DNA of 64,000 nucleotides, taken from NCBI GenBank assembly GCA_009778325.1, contig WRJZ01000052.1:1-64000 (forward strand). Direction: 5' to 3'. Shown piece after piece: positions 141-30,193 of this stretch. Made by a program: the position numbers and the translations under genes. The stretch is from Candidatus Endomicrobium neocapritermitis (GTDB lineage: Bacteria > Elusimicrobiota > Endomicrobiia > Endomicrobiales > Endomicrobiaceae). Numbering within the stretch: the stretch's first letter is position 1; every line of letters starts with the position of its first letter. The notes under the pieces are model-generated. The model did no database searches. It had not been told where the DNA came from and saw only the letters and a program-made list of their open reading frames with translations.

Positions 141-252
141 TGTCATCCCCGAAATTTGTAATCGGGGATCCATGTTGGTATTTAAAGGCATAAGGTAAAA
201 AATAAATTATTAGTAAAAATGGATTCCCGATAAAGACATTCGGGAATGACAC
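141..252. repeat. Palindromic dispersed element (family 2, intergenic copy)
   Basis: The element begins tgtcatccccgaa and ends ttcgggaatgaca, which are inverted copies with one mismatch. A second inner inverted pair is atcggggatccat near 163 and atggattcccgat near 221. The two nested arms enclose an AT-rich middle. The same ends and inner arms recur in frame inside the giant protein at 12100-12182, with a shorter middle. It lies directly upstream of cinA and may form a long hairpin in the transcript. Confidence 0.85.
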
Positions 253-10628: not shown

Positions 10629-10642
10629 TATTGGAGGAATTT

Positions 10643-13600
10643 GTGAAAAAACCATTAATTAAAAAAATCTTGGCGAGTTTTATAGCCGTAATTTTTACGG
10701 TTACGACTTTGTCACAGAGTGTATCTGCGACCGGCATAATTGGAGTACCCCCCCTACCTGCTAGTTTCGCGGCGGAAAATACGCTGCGGCTGCAGAGCGT
10801 TTTACCTTTAACGCTCGGCAAAATAACAAACCTTCATGTAAAACAGTCTCCGCAAGTAATAATAAATATTCAAGACCTGCACAGCCATGCCCAAACTCAA
10901 AGAAATATCAATCAGATAATAAACCTGATTGTTTCAAACTATAAAGTGTCGGCAATATACGCCGAAGGCGGCGTCGGCGATATCAGCGTTGATTGGATAA
11001 AACAAATACAAGATGAGGAACTCCGCTCCCGCGTTATAGAACAGCTTTTGGAAGACGGCATACTTACGGCTGCCGAATATTACGCCATGACTAGTAGAGG
11101 CAATTACGAATTACGAATGACGAATTACGAATCAACGGCAAAGATGAAAGGCAATTACGAATCAACTGCAACAGCTGCCTATATTCCGTTAAAAGGAATA
11201 GAAGACCGCGAGATTCATCAAATAAATTTAAAAAGGCTGGCGGCAATACAAGATAACAAAAAAAGGTACGAAAGCAGTATTGCGAAAATAGAAAAAGAAA
11301 TAAAAGTTCTCAATAAACTTTATACCAACAGGCGCAATGTTAAATTCAACAAAATATTGTCTGATTATGAAAACAAGGAAATTGCAGACGCGAAATTTTA
11401 CAGAGTGATCGCGAAATACGTAGAGGCAATAAACAAAAACCCGGAAAGGTATAACAATTTTACAAAAATATCGCTGGAAAATTACCCGAATGTCAACGCT
11501 TATACCGAAATACTTTACAACAGCCGTGAAATAGACAATAAAGCCGCGTCAATGGAATTGCAAAGAGTTGTAAACGATTTAAAGTCGTCGCTTTCATACG
11601 TAGATTATAAATATATTCTTGATGAAACAATCAATTTTCAGGATACCGACAAAACGATAGAAATTTTGTCCCTGGTTATCGGGCAAGACCCATCGGCGCT
11701 GCGTAAGCTTCCAAACCTTGAGAGGCTGATAAAGTTAAACAAGCTTGCCAAAGAGTTAAACCCGATAGATTTGATTACGGAGCAGAGAAACCTTACCGAA
11801 AGAATAAAATTCGCGCTTGCGTATGACGACACCGAAGCGGAAATAAGTTTTATAACTGACTTTTTCAAATATTTCAAAGATTATATGTCGGCAAATTTAA
11901 CGCAGGATGACTGGATATATGTAAAAGACAATCTGCCGCAGTTTATAGAAATATTTAACAAATACGCAGCCGGAAACTATTTGGCGGAAATATCAGATGA
12001 TTTTGCGGAAATAACCGCATACTACGACTTAAACACCAAAAGAAACGAAATATTTTTGCAACAGTTGGGAGTTTCTTCTTCGTCGTCATTATCTGTATCT
12101 GTCATCTCCGAAGACAGTAATAGGGGATCCGCGTTAAAAAACCAAAATGGATTCCCGATAGAGGCGCTTGGGAATGACACTACAATGACAGCTCTCGAAT
12201 TATTGAAACAAGCTCAAGATGTCAAAATACTGATTACCGGCGGCTACCACAGCGAGGGATTAAAAAATCTCTTATCCGATAAAAACATATCGTTAATCCA
12301 AATAACGCCGAACGTCACCGCAGACATAACGGAAGCACAAAAAGCATATGAAAACATAATAAAAGAGCAGTCAAAACTCCCCAAAAATGCGTTATCTTAT
12401 ATTTTATTGTCAAGCTCAATTCCGCCATATCAAAAAGCTGTAATAATAAAAACATTAGTTGCAATAAATTTAGACGAAGCGGCTATAGCTAAAGCCATAG
12501 AAGCTGACAAAGCTTCAATTAGCGAAGACAAAACTAAAATTGTTATTGACGGGCAAGAATTTGAAATTACAGCCGCGCAAATTAATGTTATTGACGCAGA
12601 CAAAAAAGGCAAACTACAAGAAATAGTTGATGCTTTTGCGGGAACATTTTCAAAACAGACTTTTTTTGATTTTGTAAGTTTATTTGGCAAAGACGAACCG
12701 GGTCCTATTACCGAAATAGAAAGAGAGGCTTTGCAAAATAAAGAAAAGTTAGCTGGCATTTCAAATTGGCAAAGATATCCTAGATTTTTACAAATGTTTT
12801 TATTGGAAATAGAAACAGGTCTAAAAGTAAAAGCTCGTGGAAAAATAAAATCTGTTTTCGATGTTTCATCGGAAGAAGTTAAAGCTTTAATAAGAGGACA
12901 TGAGAAAGACATAAAAACTTATATCAAGGCTCCGACATTCGGATTACAAATTCCAAAGTTTTCAGCAATGGAGGATGCGCAAAAGTGGATGTCGGATATT
13001 GACAAAAAGTTTAACGGCAGACTGATAAGCGCTATCGGTTCCGTTGACGGAATGAAATGGTTTTCCGTTTTACGTTCAAACAAGGAATTAGCTGACGAAT
13101 ATGCGTTGATATCCGAGGCAAATGCGGCATTGGAGCAAGCTATAAAAGATAATGATGAATCAGCTGCAAAAAGCGCGCGCGAAACATTAAAAGGTTTTGA
13201 AAATTTCAGATTCAAAGTTTTATCCGCGGAAATTATGGCAAAATCCGGAGGTTATATAGCTGTACAGACTGCGGACAAAGTTGATAAAGACGGCAAAAAA
13301 ATTGAGGTTTTAGACTGTTATATTATAGGCTTGGACGGGTTGGAGAAATATAAAGTTAACGATAAAGTTCCGCACATATCAAGAGACGAGGTAAATAAAA
13401 GAAATACCGATGCCCAAGGCAAATCTTTGGAGAGCAGGCTGGCAGGTTTGTTCGGCACGGGAACAACTTTGCCACAAATAGAAGGTTTAACCGGACTTCA
13501 CAAACAAGTTTCGGAAAAAATGATTAGAGCCGACATTTTGGGGCTAAACATACATACCATAAATAGCAATGGTCTTAGCCAAGAAGCTAAAAACAGCGCA

Positions 13601-16600
13601 TTTTTGGCTTTGACTTATGATAAAACCGGCGAACTGAAAAGCTATCACGTCGTGAATTCTCAAGGAACTTCCATAATGCCAATAATGTATGAATTTGCTG
13701 GGGAAGCGACCACAGATGTTTTAGCCGTTGCAAACAATCGTTGGGATGAAAACGGAGAGCAGGTTCCGGTAAGTTTTATGTCATCCGGTTTAACTTCAAA
13801 TATTTTGTGGAGATTAATAAAAGAATATAAGCCGCAAGCTTTTAACTATAAGAAAAAATCTTTATTCGGATATAAGATTTCAGCAGCGATAACAACTTTG
13901 CAAGAGGCGAAAGAGTTTGCCTCAACTCTTCCCGGAGGATTTTTAGAAAAGATAGGTTCAGTAGACAATGCGGTATATTTTGATATTTTGTCGGCTTATA
14001 TGGAATTAAACGAAGACGCAATAAACGCTATAAAATCATTCGCTTCGGAATATAAAGTAAAAATAAACGGTAAAGAAAAGGATGTGATAGAAGCAATAAA
14101 AGCCGCAAGATCCGATAAGGGTGCGATTGAGTCAAAAGTTAAAGAAAAAAAGCCGAAAGAGGCGAATTTCAAAAATAAAGAAGAATACGCTAAAGCCATG
14201 TCTAAATTTGATAAATGGAAATCGGGCGAGTATGATAAGTTTGCAAAAAAATATGGGGAACTGATTAATTTCGGCATACTGTATCAATTTAAACAAGATG
14301 CGGGTTCGGTGATAGCTCTGCAGACTTCTTCAGACGGAATCCTTGATGTTTACATAATAGGCAAAGGAACCTACAACAAAAAATACGACAAAAACATCGA
14401 TTGGAATGTAATAAATAAAAAAACTAAAATAGCGGGCAAAACGTTACAGGACAGACTGCTTGGAATGGGAATAGATATAGCGTCTTTGGGAACAGATGTG
14501 ATAGAAGGAATTGATAAACAGCAGCCCGAAACTATGATTCGCGCTCAAGACATAGGCCTTAATATTACAGTGGAAAGTTCGGCAGGCGCGCAGGAAACTC
14601 TTTCAGGCGCGTTTATTGCAATAAGCGAAGACGGTTCATGGCACATAGTTAATGCTGAAGCCTCGGAACTTGTTCCCATTCAATATGAACTTGCCGAACA
14701 GATAAAACCGACCGCAAGAGAAGCGTTGTTAGGATATGACGCTAAAACAATTTATAAAATTATCGGAGAACTTAACGGCTCTTTGTTAAGCGATTATAAT
14801 ATTGCCGGCAAGATTGCAGATGTTGCCAAAGGAATTGTTACCGTAAGAGTGGGAGCAGACGGCACTATTTCAATGATATATCAATATAATGGGGCTTTAG
14901 AGAAGTTGCTGATCCCGCTCATTGGGAACGAAGTATATTATGAGAAAAATGGAACAAGCGCAATGATTTCATTCGATAATGTTAATGTGCCAAAATATTT
15001 TAAAAATCTGTTGGATTTTGTTATGAAATCAGGCTTGTATAGTTTATGGAAAAAATCTAAAGGCGAATTGAAACTTTCCGATAAAGATGAAAAATATTTT
15101 AGAGATATTGAAAGAAAAGCAGAAGAAACTTACAGAGCAAAACAGGCAAAGATTGAAGAATTAGAAGGCTATGTGCTAAGGTTAAAACAGTATAGCAATA
15201 GCAGCTTTAACGACAATCAACGGAAACAATATGATGAAGCCGCTATAGCTTGGAGTAATGCAAAAAAAGTACTCTCAGAATATTATAAAGATAAGTCCAA
15301 CCCTGCGTTTCAAGAACTTATAGAGGTAGCTAACTTTTCAGAAAATGATATTTCAAGCGTCAAAAAATTAGAAAAACATATTAAGCGGCTGAAGGCTGTA
15401 CAGCAAGGCGCGGCGCTGGTTTCGGATTCTACGATAGAGTATTACACAAAAACTTTGGAAGGACTGCTGGAACTGTGGCAAGTCAAACAAGATAAAGCCA
15501 ACAAGGAGATAATCGGGGAGATAATAAAAAAGACAATGGAAGAAGTTGGATTCCAAGATCTTTCGGAAGAGAAAAAAGAAGAAGCAATAAATTATAGGAT
15601 CATCTCGCAGCTTCTTGCTCCTGAAAAGGAAGCGGGTATAATAGCTCAAATAGTTGAAGCGGTGCTTGTCGGTAAGATAACATTAGAACAAATTTTGTCG
15701 GGCACATTTCCGGCAGATTCGATTGTCGGTAAATTTTTATCCGGAGACCATTCAAAGTATCCTGATGCAAAAGAATTATATCATCAAGGATTATACGACA
15801 TAGTTAGTAAGACAATCGATGCTTTAAGTTATAGCATGCCGTTTACATTGCCATGGTTTGTGATACCTTTTTGTCAACCTGTGGCTGTACAAATTGCCGC
15901 GTTGTGGTTTAAGATTCCTTTTTTTCGACAAAAAGCTTTAGAAACAGCTGCGCGTGAAAGCATTGCTCCGCATATGCAGTGGAATGAAGAGCATCCCGAT
16001 CCGCTTACAACCGACGGAGGCAAAAATAGCGGTAATATAAAGGGGTTTGAGTGGTATATACTTAGTCATAAATTAGATGATTTATTATATGGCGGGGATA
16101 TTTTTCAAGAAGACATAAATATTTTTAAAGGGATCGTATGGCTGGTTTCCGGTAAAGATTATGATGCAGCAGAAAGCGTATACACATCTGATTTATCAAA
16201 GCAGGTAAAGAGTTTTATTAATGAAGATGTAACGTGGGATAAATTTGCTGAAAGATTAAAAACAAAAGCTAACAATCGGAAAGAGGCAGATTATTCTCAG
16301 GCCATTAAATGGCTGCTTTCAGCCGTGTCGCAGGCTTCAGAGACACCTAATAAAAAATATGAAGAAGATTATGAGAGCAGTCAGGTCAAAATCCCCGAAC
16401 ACCTGAAACCTTTTATGGAAAAATTGGAATTACTTCTTAAGCCTAAATCGGAACGCGAATATGATTATTATAAAGATTCGTTAAGATTGATTGCAGCAAT
16501 TTTGTTTAAAAATGCCGATTATGTTATAGGTAAAGGAGGAAAAAGATATCCTTTGCTTCTGAATAGAAACGAATTTATGAAAGCGCTGTCAGGGTTAAAT

Positions 16601-19600
16601 ATAACGCAAGAGAGTATAAATAAGTATGCCGCGGAATCGGCCAAGATGGAATATGAATATAGTAACGGACGCGTAGAAATAAGCAATGATGAGTGGCGAG
16701 TAAAAGGTTATACAAAATCAGGAGATTTGTTAAAGGGAATGTGGGATATGTCAACTCCGGATGCTGAAGGCAAAAGCATAGAAACAAAGGTTAAAACTAT
16801 TGCTGATTTAAGAAATGCCGTCACTAACGATGAAAAAACTTCAATTGCTTTTGTTTGTTCATATAATGAACTTCGAAGCGCTTCGGCAGAAGTTTTACTT
16901 AAATATTTATTGTACAAAAACGGCAAAGAAAAAGTAGAAGTTTTTTCAGCCGGCTTAAACAAAATGTTTGGCAGAGAATTATCAGGCCAAGTAAGGAAAA
17001 AATTAGACAATAAATACGAAAGAGATAATGAAGAAGATAAAAAAATGTTAAATGCAATATCAGACGATTTTGTGTCCGAGTTTATAGTTGCGATTTTATT
17101 AAATAAAATTCCTGATTTTATAATAACATTTGAAGAGTTCCAAAAGAAGGAATTATTAGAAATAGGAAAAATTTTGGGTGTCGAGTTGAATGTATTTTTG
17201 TTTAGCGAACTTGACCCTGGATCATTTCCGAGAGAGAATAAGGATATAGATGGCAGTAACTGGCATTTTGTAATTAATAATATGGAGAAAATTTTTGAAA
17301 GTAATTTTAAAAAAGTGAAGGCGCAGGGAACTGCGCTGACTTCGGATGGTAAAAAAGGCAAGAAGTTATATAGTTTTGCGCCGTTTGCTTTAATACCTTT
17401 TTTAGAAGCGCATTGGCTGCCGGTTTTGTTGGCTGCAGGCGGTGTTGCGGCAGCCGGCTGGCTGGTTTGGAAAGTTTGGACAAACTATAAAGCAAGTCAA
17501 ATCCAAAAAAACGAAAAAGCTGAGAAAGATTACATTCCTGACGGCGTAATTAAAGGGGAAGCCGAACTCGACAGATTGCTTAAAGATATATATGGCGATT
17601 CCCCTTCTGAAAGCGTAATTAAAATTGACGAGGCACAGCAAGCATATATAAATGCCACAATTGAAGACTGTGATGAGGAAGGATATAAATATGTCATATT
17701 TAATTATTCAAAGATAGCGGATAGACAAGAAGAACTAATGTCTTATATAAGACAATTTGAAAACATTCTTTATCTTCACAATGTGGATGGCAGAGACCCT
17801 GACAGCGAAACTATACTTATGGTTCCGACAGAAGAAGCAGAGGCTGTAAAAAATAAAATAAATGAACTTTCGCAACCTAAAACGGATGTAAACAAGAATG
17901 CCAGAATTGAAGACTGTGATGAGGAAGGATATAAATATGTCATATTTAATTATTCAGAGATAGCGGATAGGCAAGAAGAACTAATGTCTTATATAAGACA
18001 ATTTGAAAACATTCTTTATCTTCACAATGTGGATGGTAGAGACCCTGACAGCGAAACTATACTTATGGTTCCTACAGAAGAAGCAGAGGCTGTAAAAAAT
18101 AAAATAAATGAACTTAGCGCAATAATGGACAAAAACCGTGAAGAAGTTAATAGAAGAATAAGAGCAGGAGAGGCTGTGTGGAAGATTGCGGCTTGGATAG
18201 CGTTCAGCCGGAAAGAAGGCAAGTTAGAGGGTTCGAGAGGCGAACAGATGGATTCGTTTAAACCGCGTAGTTTCTTTGAAGCTCATAGAGACAAAAGAGG
18301 CGTACTTGCGCTATACGGCGGGACTTTGTTGATAGCGGCAATTACGGGATTTATGTTTGTTGGCGCGGGTATAGCCGCCGCAATAACGATAGGAATAGCA
18401 GGCGGCTTGCTGTCTCACAAACCATTGCATTTTATAATAGACTATGTGTATATTAAAAATTCGGATCTCTATAAAGCGCGGCAGGTTCTGCAAAAGCAGG
18501 AAGATCAAATTACGGTTTTAGTTGTAAATGACGCTATTGCAGGTAAAGCTACCGGTATAAAAGTAGAAGGCACAAATATACGTTATGAAAATGTCAACGG
18601 GCAAATAGTAATATATGCAAACGGAATTGAATATGATACTGCAGTTAAAGAAATACACGGTTCAAAAGCCTTAAAAAAAATAATTAAAGAACATACGGGA
18701 GCCGATCTTACAAATGTGTCTTTAGAGGGGATTGCAGCAGACAAGGATATTCAAGCCGGCGATATTGTAGTTGACGGCGATATTATAAAGGTCAATGCCC
18801 AAGAGTATGAGTCAGCATACTCTCAAGGTTTTGAAGCGCTAAGTTATTATTTGCATCATGCCAGAGAAATAGCGAGAAACTTAAAAGAAACAAAAACAGA
18901 TAAAGCTATAGCGGATTTTACTAATAAAAGCGTAAATGACGTTGTAAAAGCTTTACAAAACGTAAAAACTTATTCTTCTATGAAATTAGCTGTTTCGGCT
19001 AAAGATGCCAAGGATATTGCGCAAAAGGTTAATTTATCCGCATTAAGATTATTGGGCGTAGAAGTGTTTGTAGCGGGAAATGAAACGGCTGAAAACTATC
19101 AAAGCTTGGGTTTCTGCGGAGAAATAAACGGCAGTTTATTGATGGATTATTATACTGGACAGACAATAAAAGTTAACACTGCAGATGATGCCGGCGGTTT
19201 GGATGCAATAGGTTTTCAAAATCTGCTAAATCAAGCGGAAGGTTTTGTTTTAATAGATATAGATGTTATAAATAACAATTTTAAAAGCCGAAGAAATATT
19301 TTGCAATTAAACGATAACTTCGCGGCATTGACAGGCAGCTTAAAAGTAAAGTTCGGACTTACTGAAATAAATTTGAATGAAGCGATAAGCATGGCATATA
19401 GGCTGGATTTAAACAATATGCCTATTTTGGAAACAGAAGAAAATCTTAATGTAGAACATGCGCAGGGCTTGCTAGATTCATTGCCTTCAAATCACTCTGT
19501 AAAAACGTTGTTAAATACGGTAAAGAAATTTGATACTGATGGACAAGTAAACAACATAATAATAGAAAGAATTTTAATTGCAAATTTTCTTGCAAAAAAA

Positions 19601-19903
19601 GGATTAAAAACTTCCGGCAAAAAAACGGTGATAGATGACAAACAAATGGAAGTTTTACTAGGGAAAGCGCTATTTCAGTTGGACGGAACAGATATTAGCC
19701 CCAATATAGAATTTGGCGATATACAGCATTACAATGACTATATAATACAAGAGTCAAAAAAGAATACTAAACAGGCAGCGGCAAATGTTGTAGAAATGAT
19801 ATTTCTGTATCATGGCATAGCTATAGACATAAATAAGTATAAAGAACAGCTTTATAATTCCAACAGACAAACCGGATATAAAGCAATTTTAGCCGCAGCA
19901 TAA
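10643..19903 (+). CDS. Giant exported multidomain protein with ChaN/TIKI-like N-terminus and LMW-PTP-like domain
   Basis: 3,086-aa protein. I chose the GTG at 10643 because ggagg lies 5 bases upstream; an in-frame TTG at 10631 is less likely. Signal peptide at residues 1-30. Residues ~70-560 have motifs INIQDLHSHAQTQRNI, IYAEGG and LITGGYHSEGL, resembling the ChaN/TIKI-like haem-binding or protease fold seen in giant proteins of Elusimicrobiota and Omnitrophota (my recollection). Residues ~773-1034 and ~1082-1376 are a diverged duplication. Hydrophobic segments lie near 1735-1757, 2246-2280 and 2553-2590. Residues ~2066-2225 match low-molecular-weight tyrosine phosphatase: FVCSYNELRS gives C2072 and R2078 of CX5R. 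An 82-aa tandem repeat follows (2337-2492). Two repeat-element peptides are inserted in frame (residues ~153-181 and ~486-513). It is probably surface or periplasmic; the function is unknown. Confidence 0.8.
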   Translation: MKKPLIKKILASFIAVIFTVTTLSQSVSATGIIGVPPLPASFAAENTLRLQSVLPLTLGKITNLHVKQSPQVIINIQDLHSHAQTQRNINQIINLIVSNYKVSAIYAEGGVGDISVDWIKQIQDEELRSRVIEQLLEDGILTAAEYYAMTSRGNYELRMTNYESTAKMKGNYESTATAAYIPLKGIEDREIHQINLKRLAAIQDNKKRYESSIAKIEKEIKVLNKLYTNRRNVKFNKILSDYENKEIADAKFYRVIAKYVEAINKNPERYNNFTKISLENYPNVNAYTEILYNSREIDNKAASMELQRVVNDLKSSLSYVDYKYILDETINFQDTDKTIEILSLVIGQDPSALRKLPNLERLIKLNKLAKELNPIDLITEQRNLTERIKFALAYDDTEAEISFITDFFKYFKDYMSANLTQDDWIYVKDNLPQFIEIFNKYAAGNYLAEISDDFAEITAYYDLNTKRNEIFLQQLGVSSSSSLSVSVISEDSNRGSALKNQNGFPIEALGNDTTMTALELLKQAQDVKILITGGYHSEGLKNLLSDKNISLIQITPNVTADITEAQKAYENIIKEQSKLPKNALSYILLSSSIPPYQKAVIIKTLVAINLDEAAIAKAIEADKASISEDKTKIVIDGQEFEITAAQINVIDADKKGKLQEIVDAFAGTFSKQTFFDFVSLFGKDEPGPITEIEREALQNKEKLAGISNWQRYPRFLQMFLLEIETGLKVKARGKIKSVFDVSSEEVKALIRGHEKDIKTYIKAPTFGLQIPKFSAMEDAQKWMSDIDKKFNGRLISAIGSVDGMKWFSVLRSNKELADEYALISEANAALEQAIKDNDESAAKSARETLKGFENFRFKVLSAEIMAKSGGYIAVQTADKVDKDGKKIEVLDCYIIGLDGLEKYKVNDKVPHISRDEVNKRNTDAQGKSLESRLAGLFGTGTTLPQIEGLTGLHKQVSEKMIRADILGLNIHTINSNGLSQEAKNSAFLALTYDKTGELKSYHVVNSQGTSIMPIMYEFAGEATTDVLAVANNRWDENGEQVPVSFMSSGLTSNILWRLIKEYKPQAFNYKKKSLFGYKISAAITTLQEAKEFASTLPGGFLEKIGSVDNAVYFDILSAYMELNEDAINAIKSFASEYKVKINGKEKDVIEAIKAARSDKGAIESKVKEKKPKEANFKNKEEYAKAMSKFDKWKSGEYDKFAKKYGELINFGILYQFKQDAGSVIALQTSSDGILDVYIIGKGTYNKKYDKNIDWNVINKKTKIAGKTLQDRLLGMGIDIASLGTDVIEGIDKQQPETMIRAQDIGLNITVESSAGAQETLSGAFIAISEDGSWHIVNAEASELVPIQYELAEQIKPTAREALLGYDAKTIYKIIGELNGSLLSDYNIAGKIADVAKGIVTVRVGADGTISMIYQYNGALEKLLIPLIGNEVYYEKNGTSAMISFDNVNVPKYFKNLLDFVMKSGLYSLWKKSKGELKLSDKDEKYFRDIERKAEETYRAKQAKIEELEGYVLRLKQYSNSSFNDNQRKQYDEAAIAWSNAKKVLSEYYKDKSNPAFQELIEVANFSENDISSVKKLEKHIKRLKAVQQGAALVSDSTIEYYTKTLEGLLELWQVKQDKANKEIIGEIIKKTMEEVGFQDLSEEKKEEAINYRIISQLLAPEKEAGIIAQIVEAVLVGKITLEQILSGTFPADSIVGKFLSGDHSKYPDAKELYHQGLYDIVSKTIDALSYSMPFTLPWFVIPFCQPVAVQIAALWFKIPFFRQKALETAARESIAPHMQWNEEHPDPLTTDGGKNSGNIKGFEWYILSHKLDDLLYGGDIFQEDINIFKGIVWLVSGKDYDAAESVYTSDLSKQVKSFINEDVTWDKFAERLKTKANNRKEADYSQAIKWLLSAVSQASETPNKKYEEDYESSQVKIPEHLKPFMEKLELLLKPKSEREYDYYKDSLRLIAAILFKNADYVIGKGGKRYPLLLNRNEFMKALSGLNITQESINKYAAESAKMEYEYSNGRVEISNDEWRVKGYTKSGDLLKGMWDMSTPDAEGKSIETKVKTIADLRNAVTNDEKTSIAFVCSYNELRSASAEVLLKYLLYKNGKEKVEVFSAGLNKMFGRELSGQVRKKLDNKYERDNEEDKKMLNAISDDFVSEFIVAILLNKIPDFIITFEEFQKKELLEIGKILGVELNVFLFSELDPGSFPRENKDIDGSNWHFVINNMEKIFESNFKKVKAQGTALTSDGKKGKKLYSFAPFALIPFLEAHWLPVLLAAGGVAAAGWLVWKVWTNYKASQIQKNEKAEKDYIPDGVIKGEAELDRLLKDIYGDSPSESVIKIDEAQQAYINATIEDCDEEGYKYVIFNYSKIADRQEELMSYIRQFENILYLHNVDGRDPDSETILMVPTEEAEAVKNKINELSQPKTDVNKNARIEDCDEEGYKYVIFNYSEIADRQEELMSYIRQFENILYLHNVDGRDPDSETILMVPTEEAEAVKNKINELSAIMDKNREEVNRRIRAGEAVWKIAAWIAFSRKEGKLEGSRGEQMDSFKPRSFFEAHRDKRGVLALYGGTLLIAAITGFMFVGAGIAAAITIGIAGGLLSHKPLHFIIDYVYIKNSDLYKARQVLQKQEDQITVLVVNDAIAGKATGIKVEGTNIRYENVNGQIVIYANGIEYDTAVKEIHGSKALKKIIKEHTGADLTNVSLEGIAADKDIQAGDIVVDGDIIKVNAQEYESAYSQGFEALSYYLHHAREIARNLKETKTDKAIADFTNKSVNDVVKALQNVKTYSSMKLAVSAKDAKDIAQKVNLSALRLLGVEVFVAGNETAENYQSLGFCGEINGSLLMDYYTGQTIKVNTADDAGGLDAIGFQNLLNQAEGFVLIDIDVINNNFKSRRNILQLNDNFAALTGSLKVKFGLTEINLNEAISMAYRLDLNNMPILETEENLNVEHAQGLLDSLPSNHSVKTLLNTVKKFDTDGQVNNIIIERILIANFLAKKGLKTSGKKTVIDDKQMEVLLGKALFQLDGTDISPNIEFGDIQHYNDYIIQESKKNTKQAAANVVEMIFLYHGIAIDINKYKEQLYNSNRQTGYKAILAAA
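11098..11182 (+). repeat. attacga heptad repeat inserted in frame in the giant gene
   Basis: Sequence ggcaattacgaattacgaat and its continuation through caacggcaaagatgaaaggc and a second partial word run matches the intergenic elements at 26283 and 38203. It is read as GNYELRMTNYESTAK plus a second NYESTATA unit. No inverted right arm is present. Reading continues in frame into AAYIPLKGIED on the far side. Confidence 0.9.
12100..12182 (+). repeat. Family-2 palindromic element inserted in frame in the giant gene
   Basis: It begins tgtcatctccgaa, contains taggggatcc and atggattcccgata, and ends gggaatgacac. These are the same ends and inner arms as the intergenic copy at 141-252, with a shorter middle. 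It is translated as a low-complexity peptide starting VISEDSNRG and ending ALGNDT, just upstream of the ITGGYHSEGL motif. Confidence 0.88.
17651..18116 (+). repeat. 246-bp-period tandem duplication inside the giant gene
   Basis: Copies at 17651-17870 and 17897-18116 are nearly identical at the DNA level, including third codon positions; the few differences include K/E in NYSKIAD versus NYSEIAD. The encoded ~74-aa unit begins ATIEDCDEEGYKYVIF and ends EAVKNKINEL. The near-identity points to a recent duplication. The unit predicts alpha/beta secondary structure and I recognise no family. Confidence 0.93.
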
Positions 19904-23097: not shown

Positions 23098-26000
23098 ATG
23101 AAAAAGACGATTTTTTTTATTTTGATGTTTTTCGTATTTTCGCGCGGGGTTGTTTTTGCAAATGAGCTTGCCGCGTCGATAATTGCCGGAGAGACGGATA
23201 AGGCCGTGAGCTTAATAGAACGCGGCGAAGGCATTGATATAAATGCAAAAGACGAGCAGGGGTATACGCCTCTTATCATTGCCGCACAACATGGAGACGC
23301 TGCGGCGGTCAGGGCTCTTATAAATAAAAATGCAGATATTAACGCGAAAAGTTATAAAGGCATTACGGCATTAATGGCGGCGGTTGAAAAAGGAAGTATC
23401 GATATCGCGATTATGCTTGCAGACGCACGCGCTGAAATAGACGCTAAAGACAATGAAGGATGGACGGCTTTGCTTTTTGCCGCGCGTTCCGGCAATGCAG
23501 GTATGGCAAGGTTTTTGATAGACAGAAGGGCTGATGTAAACGCCAGAAACTATGCCGGCGAGACTCCTCTCACGCAGGCTGTTGAGAAAAGCCACAGAGA
23601 CATAGTAAAAATGCTGATTGAAAACGGCGCTAATGTAAATGCAAGGCAGAATAACGGATGGACGCCGTTAATGTTTGCGGCAAAAAACGGAAGCGATTTT
23701 ATCATGACGCTTTTAGTTGACGAGAAAGCCGACGTAAACGCAAAAAATAATTCATACTGGACTCCTTTAATGATCGCAATTAAAAGCGGACATCAGGCCT
23801 CGGCAAAACTTCTTATAGAATCAGGAGCGAATGTTAACGTTGAAAATGAAAATAAGTGGACGGCCCTGATGTTTGCCGCTGAAGCAGGCAGCGAGGAAAC
23901 CGTTAATCTTCTCATAGACAGAAATGCAGGAATTGACGCGAAAAACGATTCAAATTCAACCGCGCTTATCATTGCTTTGGACAATAAGCGTGCCGAAACG
24001 GCAAACCTCCTCATTAACGCCGGAGCAAACGTAGACATAAAAAATAATAACGGAATGACCGCTCTAATGCTTGCTCTGAGGAACGAATACGTTAAAGAAG
24101 CCCGTAAAATTATAAACAAAACCGCGAATGTCAATGCCACGGACGCTAAAGGCTGGAACGCTTTGATGTTTGCGGCAAGGTACGGCAATTCATCGGAAGT
24201 ATTTTCGGATCTTATAAATAAAAGAGCGCATGTTAACGCCAAGAATGATTCCGGCTGGACTGCCCTTATGCTCGCGGCTTACGCCGGCAACGGGGAGTTT
24301 ATTAAAATACTCATGGAAAATGGCGCTGATACCGAGATTAAAAATAATAACGGCAGGACTGCTCTTATGGAAGCGATTGAAAATAAGCATCCGGAAACGG
24401 CTGCTGTTCTTATCGCGGAAGGCGCGGACGTAAATGCGAAAGCCGGCGAAATATATATGACCGCGCTTATGTTTGCTTCAGCCGCAGGATACGACAGCCT
24501 TGTTTCTCTTTTGCTTTCAAAAGGCGCAAATGTTGACGATAAAAATAATGAAAATATGACGGCTTTGTTTTTCGCGGTAATAAATAACAGAATCGGCACC
24601 GTGAAAAAACTGATTGAATCCGGAGCTGATATAAACTTAAGCGACAATAAAGGAAAAAATGTTTTGGCTTATGCCGTAGAAAACGGACATAAAGAACTTG
24701 AAAAACTGCTCAGAGCCGAGATTGCCGATAATGCAAAAGGCGTTTTAGCCGAAATAAATAAAGGCGAAGGAATGGACACCCATGTCACTCCGGTTTTGCT
24801 TGCCGCTTATGACGGCGATATTGAAAAAGTAAAAGAAAAATTATCAGCAAGTAAAAAAGCCGCCGGAGAGAAAACACCGCTGGGAGTTACTCCGCTTATG
24901 ATAGCCGCGTCAAAAGATAATATTGAGATGGCAAAACTTTTGATTGAAAAAGGAGTGAAAGTCAACGTTTCCGCTAAAGACGGTTCTACGGCTTTGATTT
25001 TTGCGGCGCGCGGCGCATCGCCTGAAATGATAAATCTGCTTCTTGATAACGGCGCAAAAGTAAATTTGGCTGATAAAAAAGGGCTGACGCCTTTATCGGC
25101 GGCAATAAAAGCCGGAAGAATAGATGGAGTTCACGTTTTGATTGCGAGAGGAGCCGATGTAAATAAAAAAGATATTGAGGGGATGACTCCTCTGATGCAT
25201 GCCGCGAGAAACGGAAATGAGCGCATAATAAAAGAATTGATAAAAAGCGGAGCAAAAGTAAACGATAAGAATAAATCCGGACAGAGCGCGCTTATGATTG
25301 CCGCCGACGCAGAAAATAAAGAAGCGGTAAATATTTTAATTGAAAACGGCGCGGATATAAATATGAAAGACAATAACGGTTTTTCGGCTTTGGCTATGTC
25401 GGTATATAACGGCAAACCGGAAATGGTCGCTCTTCTTATAGAAAAAGGCGCGAATGTAAATATTAAAAACAACAAAGGCTGGACTCCGCTCATTATTGCG
25501 GCTTATCATGACAAAGCCGGCATTGTAAAAAAGCTGTACGAAGCCGGAGCGGATATAAACGCTGCAACGAAAGACGGCTGGACAGCTCTTATGGTTGCTG
25601 CAAAATACGGCAAAGACAAAATGGAAACTCTTAATCTGATTATAGAGCTTAAGCCGAATATCAATTTTAGAAATAAAAGCGGATGGAGCGCATTGATGCT
25701 TGCGGCTTATGAAGGAAATATTAAATCCGCGCAAGCGCTGATTTCCGCAGGCGCTGATGTCAACGCTTCAAAAAAAGACGGTTTTACGTCGCTCATGCTG
25801 GCCAGTGAGGCAAAAAACGCGGAAATGGCCAAACTTTTATTGTCTGCCGGCGCGAATATAAATATTGACAGTTCGTACTGGGGAACGGCTCTTAATGTCG
25901 CAGTTGCGAACGACGATGAAGAAATGGTCAGATTTTTGGTAAGGAGCGGGGCTGACAGAAACAAAACCGGAAAAAGCGGAAAGACGGCTTTGATGATAGC

Positions 26001-26283
26001 CGCGATGAGGGGCAATATCAAGATTGCGGAGTATTTGATTAATAACGGCGCTGACGTGAACGCGCAAGAAAAAAGAAGCGGATATACCGCTCTTGATTAT
26101 GCCTTCGGAAATGATGAAATGATAAATTTTCTTAAACAGCACGGTGCAGATAAAGCCAATGCTTTGAAGTACGACAAGATAATGGAAGAAAAACGCGAAT
26201 CTTTCTCCGTTCAGAAAGTTAATACGGCCGAAGGAAGCTCAACTTCTCCGTTTGATAATTCTGAGAAATGGATGCTGCAGTAA
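23098..26283 (+). CDS. Exported protein with 29 ankyrin repeats
   Basis: 1,061-aa protein. A signal peptide (residues 1-22, ending VVFA) is followed by ankyrin repeats of about 33 aa, each with the GxTALMxAAxxG and GADVNAKN pattern. I count 29 by hand: 15 in a first array (residues ~55-545), a short irregular linker (AEINKGEGMDTHV), then 14 more to about residue 1020, and a polar tail ending SEKWMLQ. It would form a long solenoid outside the cytoplasm, for binding partner proteins. Ribosome site caaggag precedes the ATG. An exported solenoid of this size hints at interaction with other cells, which is inference. Confidence 0.95.
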   Translation: MKKTIFFILMFFVFSRGVVFANELAASIIAGETDKAVSLIERGEGIDINAKDEQGYTPLIIAAQHGDAAAVRALINKNADINAKSYKGITALMAAVEKGSIDIAIMLADARAEIDAKDNEGWTALLFAARSGNAGMARFLIDRRADVNARNYAGETPLTQAVEKSHRDIVKMLIENGANVNARQNNGWTPLMFAAKNGSDFIMTLLVDEKADVNAKNNSYWTPLMIAIKSGHQASAKLLIESGANVNVENENKWTALMFAAEAGSEETVNLLIDRNAGIDAKNDSNSTALIIALDNKRAETANLLINAGANVDIKNNNGMTALMLALRNEYVKEARKIINKTANVNATDAKGWNALMFAARYGNSSEVFSDLINKRAHVNAKNDSGWTALMLAAYAGNGEFIKILMENGADTEIKNNNGRTALMEAIENKHPETAAVLIAEGADVNAKAGEIYMTALMFASAAGYDSLVSLLLSKGANVDDKNNENMTALFFAVINNRIGTVKKLIESGADINLSDNKGKNVLAYAVENGHKELEKLLRAEIADNAKGVLAEINKGEGMDTHVTPVLLAAYDGDIEKVKEKLSASKKAAGEKTPLGVTPLMIAASKDNIEMAKLLIEKGVKVNVSAKDGSTALIFAARGASPEMINLLLDNGAKVNLADKKGLTPLSAAIKAGRIDGVHVLIARGADVNKKDIEGMTPLMHAARNGNERIIKELIKSGAKVNDKNKSGQSALMIAADAENKEAVNILIENGADINMKDNNGFSALAMSVYNGKPEMVALLIEKGANVNIKNNKGWTPLIIAAYHDKAGIVKKLYEAGADINAATKDGWTALMVAAKYGKDKMETLNLIIELKPNINFRNKSGWSALMLAAYEGNIKSAQALISAGADVNASKKDGFTSLMLASEAKNAEMAKLLLSAGANINIDSSYWGTALNVAVANDDEEMVRFLVRSGADRNKTGKSGKTALMIAAMRGNIKIAEYLINNGADVNAQEKRSGYTALDYAFGNDEMINFLKQHGADKANALKYDKIMEEKRESFSVQKVNTAEGSSTSPFDNSEKWMLQ

Positions 26284-27673: not shown

Positions 27674-30193
27674 ATGAAAAATCAGAAAATTAACGAAATA
27701 CTAAGCCTTGTGCAAAGGCCGTCAAGATATATCAACAGCGAGCTCAACTCTCATCAGGCTGATATGTCTGCGGATTTTTCCGTATGCCTGTGCTTTCCGG
27801 ACATTTATGAAGTAGGAGCTTCAAATCTCGGGCTTGAGATTCTTTACCATTTAATAAATGAAAAAAAGCTGGCCAGGTGCGAGAGATGTTTTGCCCCTGA
27901 TACGGATTTGGAGCAAATACTGCGTGAAAGAAAAATAAGCCTTTTTTCGCTTGAATCCCAAAGCGGTTTAAATAGTTTTGATATCGTGGGATTTACCATT
28001 CAATGCGAACTTGTCGCGACAAATATTATTAATATGCTGGATTTAAGCGGTATGTCCGCTTTTGCAAAAGACAGAAAAGAAGAAGACCCTCTTATACTCG
28101 GCGGAGGCCCGGCTTTGACAAATCCCGAGCCTTTTGCCGATTTTTTTGACGCTTTTGTTATCGGCGACGGCGAAGTGGCGATGCCTCTTGTAATAAATTC
28201 ATGGAAAGAAACAAAAAACATGCCTAAAGCCGAAAGGCTTAAAAAACTTTCCGAAATAGAAGGCGTTTATATTCCTTCGCTTTATAATGTCGAGTACAAT
28301 GAAGACAATACGGTAAAATCAGTTTTGCCGGTAAGCGGCGAAGTTAAAGCTGTTGTGAATAAAACCGTTTTAAACCTTGAAAACGCATATTTTCCCAAGA
28401 AAAAAATAGTTCCTTTTGCCGAAACAGTGCACAACAGGCTCAATATTGAAGTTGCGCGCGGATGTCCCGGACAGTGCAGATTTTGCCAGGCTTCAAAATA
28501 CTATCGCCCGTGGAGGCAGCGCCCCCTTGAAAATCTTTTGGAGCTTGTAAAAGAAGGGTTAGCGTCTACCGGTTATGAGGAAGTGGCTTTTTCGTCGCTT
28601 TCATGCAGCGATTATAAAAATCTTGATAAGCTGCTGATGGAAACAAATAATTTGTACGGCAGTTCAAATTTGAGCATATCTTTGCCGTCTTTGCGCTGTA
28701 ATGAACATTCGCTGAAAGTCGCGCAGTATATAAACCGCAGCAAAAGGCCTACTTTGACTTTCGCGCCTGAAGCCGGCACTGACAGGCTAAGGAATGTTAT
28801 CGGAAAATATTTGTCCGAAAAACAGATTGTCAAAACGCTGCTTTCGGCAAACGCCATGGGCTGGAAAGTCATAAAACTTTATTTTATGATAGGGTTGCCC
28901 ACTGAAACTGATGAGGATTTAGCAGGTATAAATACTTTAGTGCGTTTTGTTAAAAAAGAGGCCAAAAAGGGCAATTACGAATTACGAATTACGAATTACG
29001 AATCAACGGCGAAAGGCAAAGGGCTCGATTTTAATATTACTGTTTCTCCGTTTGTGCCGAAAGCGCAGACTGCTTTCCAGTGGGCGCCTATGACGGCTCC
29101 CGAGAAAATAAAAGAGAAAATTGATTATTTAAATAAGATTCTTCCAGCAAAAATAAAAGCGCATAACTACAGAGCAAGCGTGCTGGAAGCTTTTATCGCA
29201 AAGGGAGACCGGCGCGTTTCCCGGGCGATTTACAAAGCGTGGCAAAAGGGCGCGCGGTTTGACCAGTGGGCCGATAAATTCGGCAATGATATTTGGAGCG
29301 AAGCGATTGCCGAAAGCGGGCTGAGTATTGATTTTTATGTTTACAGGGCAATAAAAGAGGGCGAAGTCCTCCCGTGGGATCATATTAATTTCGGAGTTAC
29401 AAAAGAATTTTTATATAAAGATTATATAAAAGGCATAAATGAAACTGCCGAAGCCGAAAGTGAAAAATTCGATAAAACGCAGTGCCTGCTGCCGGAAAAT
29501 TATGAAGAACCTAAAAATTCGGTTTTGCCGCCCGTAATGCGTATACGCCTTCGTTTTTCAAAAACGGGCATGGTTAAATATGTTTCGCATCTTGAACAGA
29601 TTGAAGTTTTAAGAAGGGCGGCAAGGCGTTCCGGGCTGCCTGTGGCATATACCGCGGGTTTTAGCCCGCAGGTAAAATCATCTTACGGACCTCCTCTTTC
29701 GGTAGGACATGAAAGTTTATGCGAATACATGGAGCTTTATTTTACGGAAAAAGTGAATGCCGGTGAAGTAATTGAAAAATTTAGCGCAAATCTTCCATAC
29801 GGATTCTCTATTTTGGACGCGAAAAGGGTGCCTCTTAACTTCCCTTCAATAGATGTTTTGGCAAATGTTGCTGAATTTTTAATAGAAAATGCGGATATAG
29901 CGCAGGAAAAGATAGATAATTTTATAAACCAAAGTTCAATACCGGTTGAAAAGTCCAAAAAAGGCAAAATTATCGAAATTGACGCTAAGCCTTTAATAAA
30001 AAAGATTCAAAATATTGAAGGTTCGCTGATAATGCAGTTAAGATTTGGCAGCGGAAAAACGGTAAAACCTGAAATGATTTTAAAAAAACTATTGGAAAAT
30101 AATGAAATTTATGCCAAAATATACAATATATACAGTATAAAAAAAATAAAATTATATATAGAGGTATCCAACGGGGAGATTTATGAGCCGTAG
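27674..30193 (+). CDS. TIGR03960-type radical SAM protein fused to DUF2344
   Basis: 839-aa protein. The N-terminal ~200 residues form a B12-binding-like Rossmann region (LCFPDIYEVGASNLGLEIL). The radical SAM core has the cluster motif CPGQCRFCQ (CX3CX2C). The C-terminal domain from about residue 615 is the TIGR03936/DUF2344 type (MRIRLRFSKTGMVKYVSHLEQ). This fusion is often found next to rng and ribosomal genes such as rplU, as here with RNase G two genes on. An in-frame repeat-element peptide (residues ~432-450, NYELRITNYESTAK) interrupts the core between EAKK and LDFNITVSPF. The gene overlaps the next by 11 bases. Confidence 0.92.
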   Translation: MKNQKINEILSLVQRPSRYINSELNSHQADMSADFSVCLCFPDIYEVGASNLGLEILYHLINEKKLARCERCFAPDTDLEQILRERKISLFSLESQSGLNSFDIVGFTIQCELVATNIINMLDLSGMSAFAKDRKEEDPLILGGGPALTNPEPFADFFDAFVIGDGEVAMPLVINSWKETKNMPKAERLKKLSEIEGVYIPSLYNVEYNEDNTVKSVLPVSGEVKAVVNKTVLNLENAYFPKKKIVPFAETVHNRLNIEVARGCPGQCRFCQASKYYRPWRQRPLENLLELVKEGLASTGYEEVAFSSLSCSDYKNLDKLLMETNNLYGSSNLSISLPSLRCNEHSLKVAQYINRSKRPTLTFAPEAGTDRLRNVIGKYLSEKQIVKTLLSANAMGWKVIKLYFMIGLPTETDEDLAGINTLVRFVKKEAKKGNYELRITNYESTAKGKGLDFNITVSPFVPKAQTAFQWAPMTAPEKIKEKIDYLNKILPAKIKAHNYRASVLEAFIAKGDRRVSRAIYKAWQKGARFDQWADKFGNDIWSEAIAESGLSIDFYVYRAIKEGEVLPWDHINFGVTKEFLYKDYIKGINETAEAESEKFDKTQCLLPENYEEPKNSVLPPVMRIRLRFSKTGMVKYVSHLEQIEVLRRAARRSGLPVAYTAGFSPQVKSSYGPPLSVGHESLCEYMELYFTEKVNAGEVIEKFSANLPYGFSILDAKRVPLNFPSIDVLANVAEFLIENADIAQEKIDNFINQSSIPVEKSKKGKIIEIDAKPLIKKIQNIEGSLIMQLRFGSGKTVKPEMILKKLLENNEIYAKIYNIYSIKKIKLYIEVSNGEIYEP
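28969..29022 (+). repeat. attacga heptad repeat inserted in frame in the radical SAM gene
   Basis: gggcaattacgaattacgaa and its continuation to caacggcgaaaggcaaag is nearly the same as the copies at 11098, 26283 and 38203. It is read as GNYELRITNYESTAKGKG, in the same frame as in the giant gene. The flanking protein sequence fits the family on both sides. Confidence 0.92.

Follow-up and report, generated by a model that had tools for sequence, protein, structure and literature searches.

The giant gene and its two in-frame repeats

The stretch of DNA analysed here (the window, 64,000 nucleotides) belongs to a 54-contig draft genome placed in the family Endomicrobiaceae (Elusimicrobiota), and the relatives with which it was compared are metagenome-assembled genomes. 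Its forward strand carries a giant ORF (10631-19903, 3090 aa), of which residues 1 to ~610 form an N-terminal module with 39 matches in the same genome and matches in 35 of the 60 relatives. No significant Pfam or PDB match was obtained for this module, and a fold search against solved structures returned nothing significant (best E 0.34). When compared with its closest homologue (L265, contig C2 of relative G031), the protein matches over residues 5-726 (60% identity) and weakly over residues 2602-3090 (26%), with nothing between, i.e. the two genes carry a common N-terminal module on different bodies. Two tandem copies of 219 bp (17651-17869 and 17897-18115, 98% identical, spacing 246 bp or 82 codons) lie further along the giant gene, and positions 23098-26283 of the window encode a 1061-aa protein rich in ankyrin repeats.

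Two unrelated repeats are inserted in frame in the module. The first (about 11099-11176, forward strand, residues 157-182; GGCAATTACGAATTACGAATGACGAATTACGAATCAACGGC) is a heptamer-array repeat of the form GGC(AATTACGA..)n..GAATCAACGGC, specific to the window gene among the homologues. The second (12100-12179, forward strand, 80 bp, TGTCATCTCCGA...GGGAATGACA) is bounded by TGTCAT and AATGACA and encodes residues 491-516 (VISEDSNRGSALKNQNGFPIEALGND). The first-pass annotation, made from the sequence alone, had placed in the giant gene two different palindromic families, one of them a repeat at 12100-12182 matching an intergenic element at 141-252, across which the frame stayed open and which preceded a conserved GGYHSEGL motif. 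Most of this description stands: the two families are distinct, ORF 10631-19903 runs uninterrupted across the second insert, the motif lies ~30 residues downstream, and the match to 141-252 is borne out below. Two points have to be amended, i.e. the second repeat starts as described and ends at 12179, 3 bp earlier, and the heptamer-array family gives no hairpin signal (fold z -0.55), so that it is not clearly palindromic. A further copy of this first family forms a third in-frame repeat in the window (28971-29012, forward strand, peptide GNYELRITNYESTA), just past the radical SAM domain of a radical SAM/DUF2344 gene (27674-30193). At another locus (L215, position 3082), a CGTC-type hairpin is nested within a heptamer-array copy, indicating that the two families combine.

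In an alignment of 113 modules, residues 491-516 correspond to a variable linker between an RNxIF and a TGG(Y/F)H motif, and the peptide is absent or different in the 112 homologous modules. The peptide is thus not conserved in distant homologues, in agreement with the insertion originally proposed. AlphaFold prediction on 60 modules gave a mean pLDDT of 86.5. Inside the model, pLDDT drops below 50 in just two places, residues 97-117 and 428-455 of the model. Since model residue 1 is residue 63 of the window protein, these are residues 159-179 and 490-517, i.e. the two inserts. This is consistent with both inserts occupying predicted disordered loops and does not amount to proof, low pLDDT partly reflecting the sparse aligned sequence there.

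A hairpin family shared with the intergenic element

The element at 141-252 (forward strand), located upstream of cinA, is a complete intergenic REP dimer and belongs to the family of the in-gene repeat. It is directly preceded (1-140) by an array of ~61-bp units (TGTCATTGCGAG..GTGGCAATCCGGCAGGTCTTAAATCCTCTCTTT), and related units adjoin other hairpin sites. The repeat unit of the family is a 36-nt hairpin made of an unpaired TGTC tag and an 8-bp stem (ATYCCCGA/TCGGGRAT) enclosing a 9-nt loop, followed by CCA and a short tail. The stem pairs alignment columns 5-12 with 22-29 (97% of cells paired), and one stem pair has both its bases changed in 10 of 22 copies, as against none of 500 shuffles, the aligned rows being repeats of one genome and hence non-independent lineages. 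Such two-sided changes indicate that the symmetry of the stem is maintained. All 19 aligned family sequences, chosen by their similarity to 141-252, start with TGTC. Full elements consist of two units facing each other with their tags outward, and single units are also common.

A covariance model was built from 19 hairpins, the in-gene copy being left out, and then run on the window. Both halves of the in-gene element were recovered: the left hairpin (12100-12135, forward strand) with 27.5 bits (E 4e-6) and the right hairpin, in opposite orientation (12144-12179, reverse strand), with 41.4 bits (E 1e-10), values that exclude a chance resemblance. BLAST with 141-252 alone as query against the whole genome also found 12144-12180 (E 5.4e-6), the reverse search from the in-gene element matched 216-253 (E 1.3e-6), and the right-half pattern common to both elements had no match in 100 shuffles. 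In the left hairpin, the tag is TGTC, the stem ATCTCCGA / TAGGGGAT contains a single mismatch plus a single G-T wobble, and CCG replaces the family tail consensus ATCCA; the right hairpin has one broken stem pair. With one stem pair lost per half and a fold barely better than that of shuffles (z-score -1.1, versus -3.8 for 141-252), the in-gene copy is a decayed element.

Distribution among genomes and genes

The census of the own genome covered the searches and the stretches around their matches, with a unit threshold of E up to 0.01. It confirmed that the 141-252 element has further copies genome-wide, with 51 hairpins at 36 sites. A tag-outward pair occurs at 13 sites, i.e. at 13 of the 14 multi-hairpin sites. 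The relative G031 harbours 77 hairpins at 58 sites, 19 of which are paired, all tag-outward, and single hairpins make up the majority of sites in both genomes. Many copies were also found in G001, G002, G003, G018, G023, G028 and the more distant G037, almost none in G004 and G005, and none in G010 and G015, which were searched for the family. Most copies are intergenic: only 4 of the 36 sites in the own genome and 5 of the 58 in G031 lie inside genes, far below the coding share of the genome (assumed to be 85%), a deficit that would follow from the loss of most insertions into genes.

Within the giant module, generic inverted-repeat counts were noisy, since they included terminator-like hairpins in the flanks, and were replaced by a scan for tag plus stem. 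Five hairpins, forming three elements (in the window, G031 and G003), were detected in 11.4 kb of linker and none in the remaining 148.6 kb of module; the probability that three of three elements fall in the linker by chance is 4e-4, the linker having been chosen after the alignment was seen. The G031 and G003 linker elements are REP dimers with 4-nt GAAA loops and other stems, and thus of a different REP type. Other linkers encode peptides resembling further repeat families, e.g. SPLAGEGRGEG, FIPSRLEVND, VIASEAKQS and LSSRTERSE, recognised by eye, the repeat search covering part of them.

In-frame copies are not confined to this module. The mutL gene of the own genome carries one unit, with a CGTC tag, in the region that separates the N-terminal domain (ending at residue 325) from MutL_C (starting at residue 422), directly following a copy of the first repeat family. 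Both inserts recur in G001, the congeneric G002 and G004 lack them, and in G023 MutL this position is occupied by another TGTCAT element. An ORF of 3471 aa or more, for which Pfam gave no match, contains two further units. In G031, in-frame units occur in a UvrD-type helicase gene, in murJ and folK, in polA, where the linker following the 5'-3' exonuclease domain is hit, and in prmC, whose insert (35-40 aa) is missing in six relatives. Conserved enzymes, i.e. MutL, PolA, PrmC, FolK, MurJ and a UvrD-type helicase, are affected by in-frame palindromic insertions in termite-gut bacteria of a phylum distant from Rickettsia. In the giant module, the sites of insertion are also the places of predicted disorder, so natural insertions may map permissive loops. 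This repeatedly hit, multi-copy module may allow the birth of new protein segments from selfish DNA to be followed in a naturally replicated setting.

Relation to known repeats and origin of the in-gene copy

The first in-frame palindromic insertions to be described came from Rickettsia. Pseudomonas REPINs, which are of the GTAG type, are linked to RAYTs. The closest match of the present family is with CGTC REPs, which have a CGTC or TGTC tag, an 8-9 bp stem starting with AT, a 4-5 nt loop, a CCA tail and head-to-head dimers, and are grouped as families CGTC-1 to CGTC-4 (Di Nocera et al. 2013, PMC3733652). According to the same study, two of these families correspond to RPE-6 and RPE-4 of R. 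conorii, and copies occur inside genes, frequently ones for replication and repair, where they may occupy flexible linkers; its main text names neither Elusimicrobiota nor Endomicrobium. The window family shares the TGTC/CGTC tag, the 8-bp stem starting with AT, the CCA tail, the tag-outward dimers and some intragenic copies, including in DNA repair genes. It differs by its 9-nt loop, whereas the G031 and G003 linker copies have the published loop length. Because of the longer loop, and because single units outnumber dimers, we file the 141-252 family, on these sequence features, as a variant of the CGTC-tagged REP class rather than as a member of a named family. The analogy with Rickettsia palindromic elements drawn in the first-pass annotation is apt, as the hairpin fits the class that includes RPE-4 and RPE-6 (PMC3733652). 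These elements and RPE-1 are likewise palindromic repeats found in frame in unrelated protein genes, but, compared through their published description, they belong to another host phylum, and the Endomicrobium copies are mostly intergenic. Pseudomonas REPINs (cf. PMC3116915) resemble the present elements in combining inverted pairs of REP hairpins with singlets; they differ in their RAYT link, none having been found for the Endomicrobiaceae hairpins. Among openly accessible papers, we found no report of intragenic REPs in Endomicrobium.

What lies at 12100-12179 is a dispersed repeat that most homologous genes lack; it leaves the reading frame open and falls in a predicted disordered linker. 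We interpret it, with a probability of about 0.87, as a CGTC-type (REP/REPIN-like, RPE-like) palindrome dimer inserted in coding sequence and tolerated in frame in that linker. Copies of the family would spread as non-autonomous mobile DNA, and those landing in genes would persist only if free of stops, without effect on the frame and located in a surface loop or an inter-domain linker. The survivors, to go by their open frame, would be translated as a neutral linker peptide and would slowly lose their palindrome. No target-site duplication was seen at the sites compared, and the exact empty site is unreadable because linkers diverge too fast.

A single ancestral insertion could also underlie the window and G031 elements, gene conversion having later replaced its hairpins with those of another REP type. 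The right junction is indeed at the same codon in the two genes, and at one MutL position the own genome and G023 have TGTCAT elements that differ from each other. But the loops differ in both halves (9 versus 4 nt), as do the stems, the left junctions lie several codons apart, and independent insertions into a permissive loop explain the window/G031 pattern equally well; we consider such a conversion rather unlikely. More speculative is the proposal that certain Endomicrobiaceae coding loops act as reusable docking sites, in which TGTCAT-ended families would be inserted or exchanged at the same codons (giant-module, MutL and PolA linkers) and peptides swapped as cassettes, with a bias to replication and repair genes; we hold it to be improbable.

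Mobilisation in the manner of Pseudomonas REPINs, with a RAYT (Y1 tyrosine) transposase as the mover, would account for the same dimer architecture, and the own genome has three Y1 transposase genes. Yet no Y1/RAYT gene was found in the element-rich G002 and G023 (drafts, 93% and 99% complete), in line with the published lack of a dedicated transposase for CGTC repeats (PMC3733652), and the Y1 gene read in detail carries its own unrelated terminal repeats. The RAYT link of the family is thus not supported, and we give this route little credence.

Selection for the insert, its translated peptide or mRNA hairpin tuning folding, pausing or domain spacing, would fit its presence in both the window gene and the closest homologue, as well as the mutL copy, which is common to two species with intact stem arms in both. 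Against such a function, the linker peptide is unconserved between the window and G031 genes, whose modules otherwise share 60-73% identity, the palindrome in the giant gene has decayed, and many homologues lack the insert. In the mutL arms, moreover, four 4-fold sites are conserved, a number not above expectation at 35% divergence, i.e. no extra conservation of these arms was detected. A selected role thus appears very improbable. An ordinary coding sequence resembling the repeat by chance, or an assembly chimera (the genomes being a draft and metagenome assemblies), can be practically dismissed given the E-values of the leave-out model (1e-10 and 4e-6) and the recurrence of in-frame cases in the separately assembled G001, G003 and G031. 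Insertion of a mobile palindrome dimer, tolerated in the linker, remains our preferred reading.

Finally, a Y1 gene of the own genome (L226, contig C52, position 83368) is flanked by inverted repeats (ATGTCAAGGGGACGGAGGAATTGACAT / ATGTCAATTCCTCCGTCCCTATGACAT) and corresponds to a terminal-repeat-associated tyrosine transposase.
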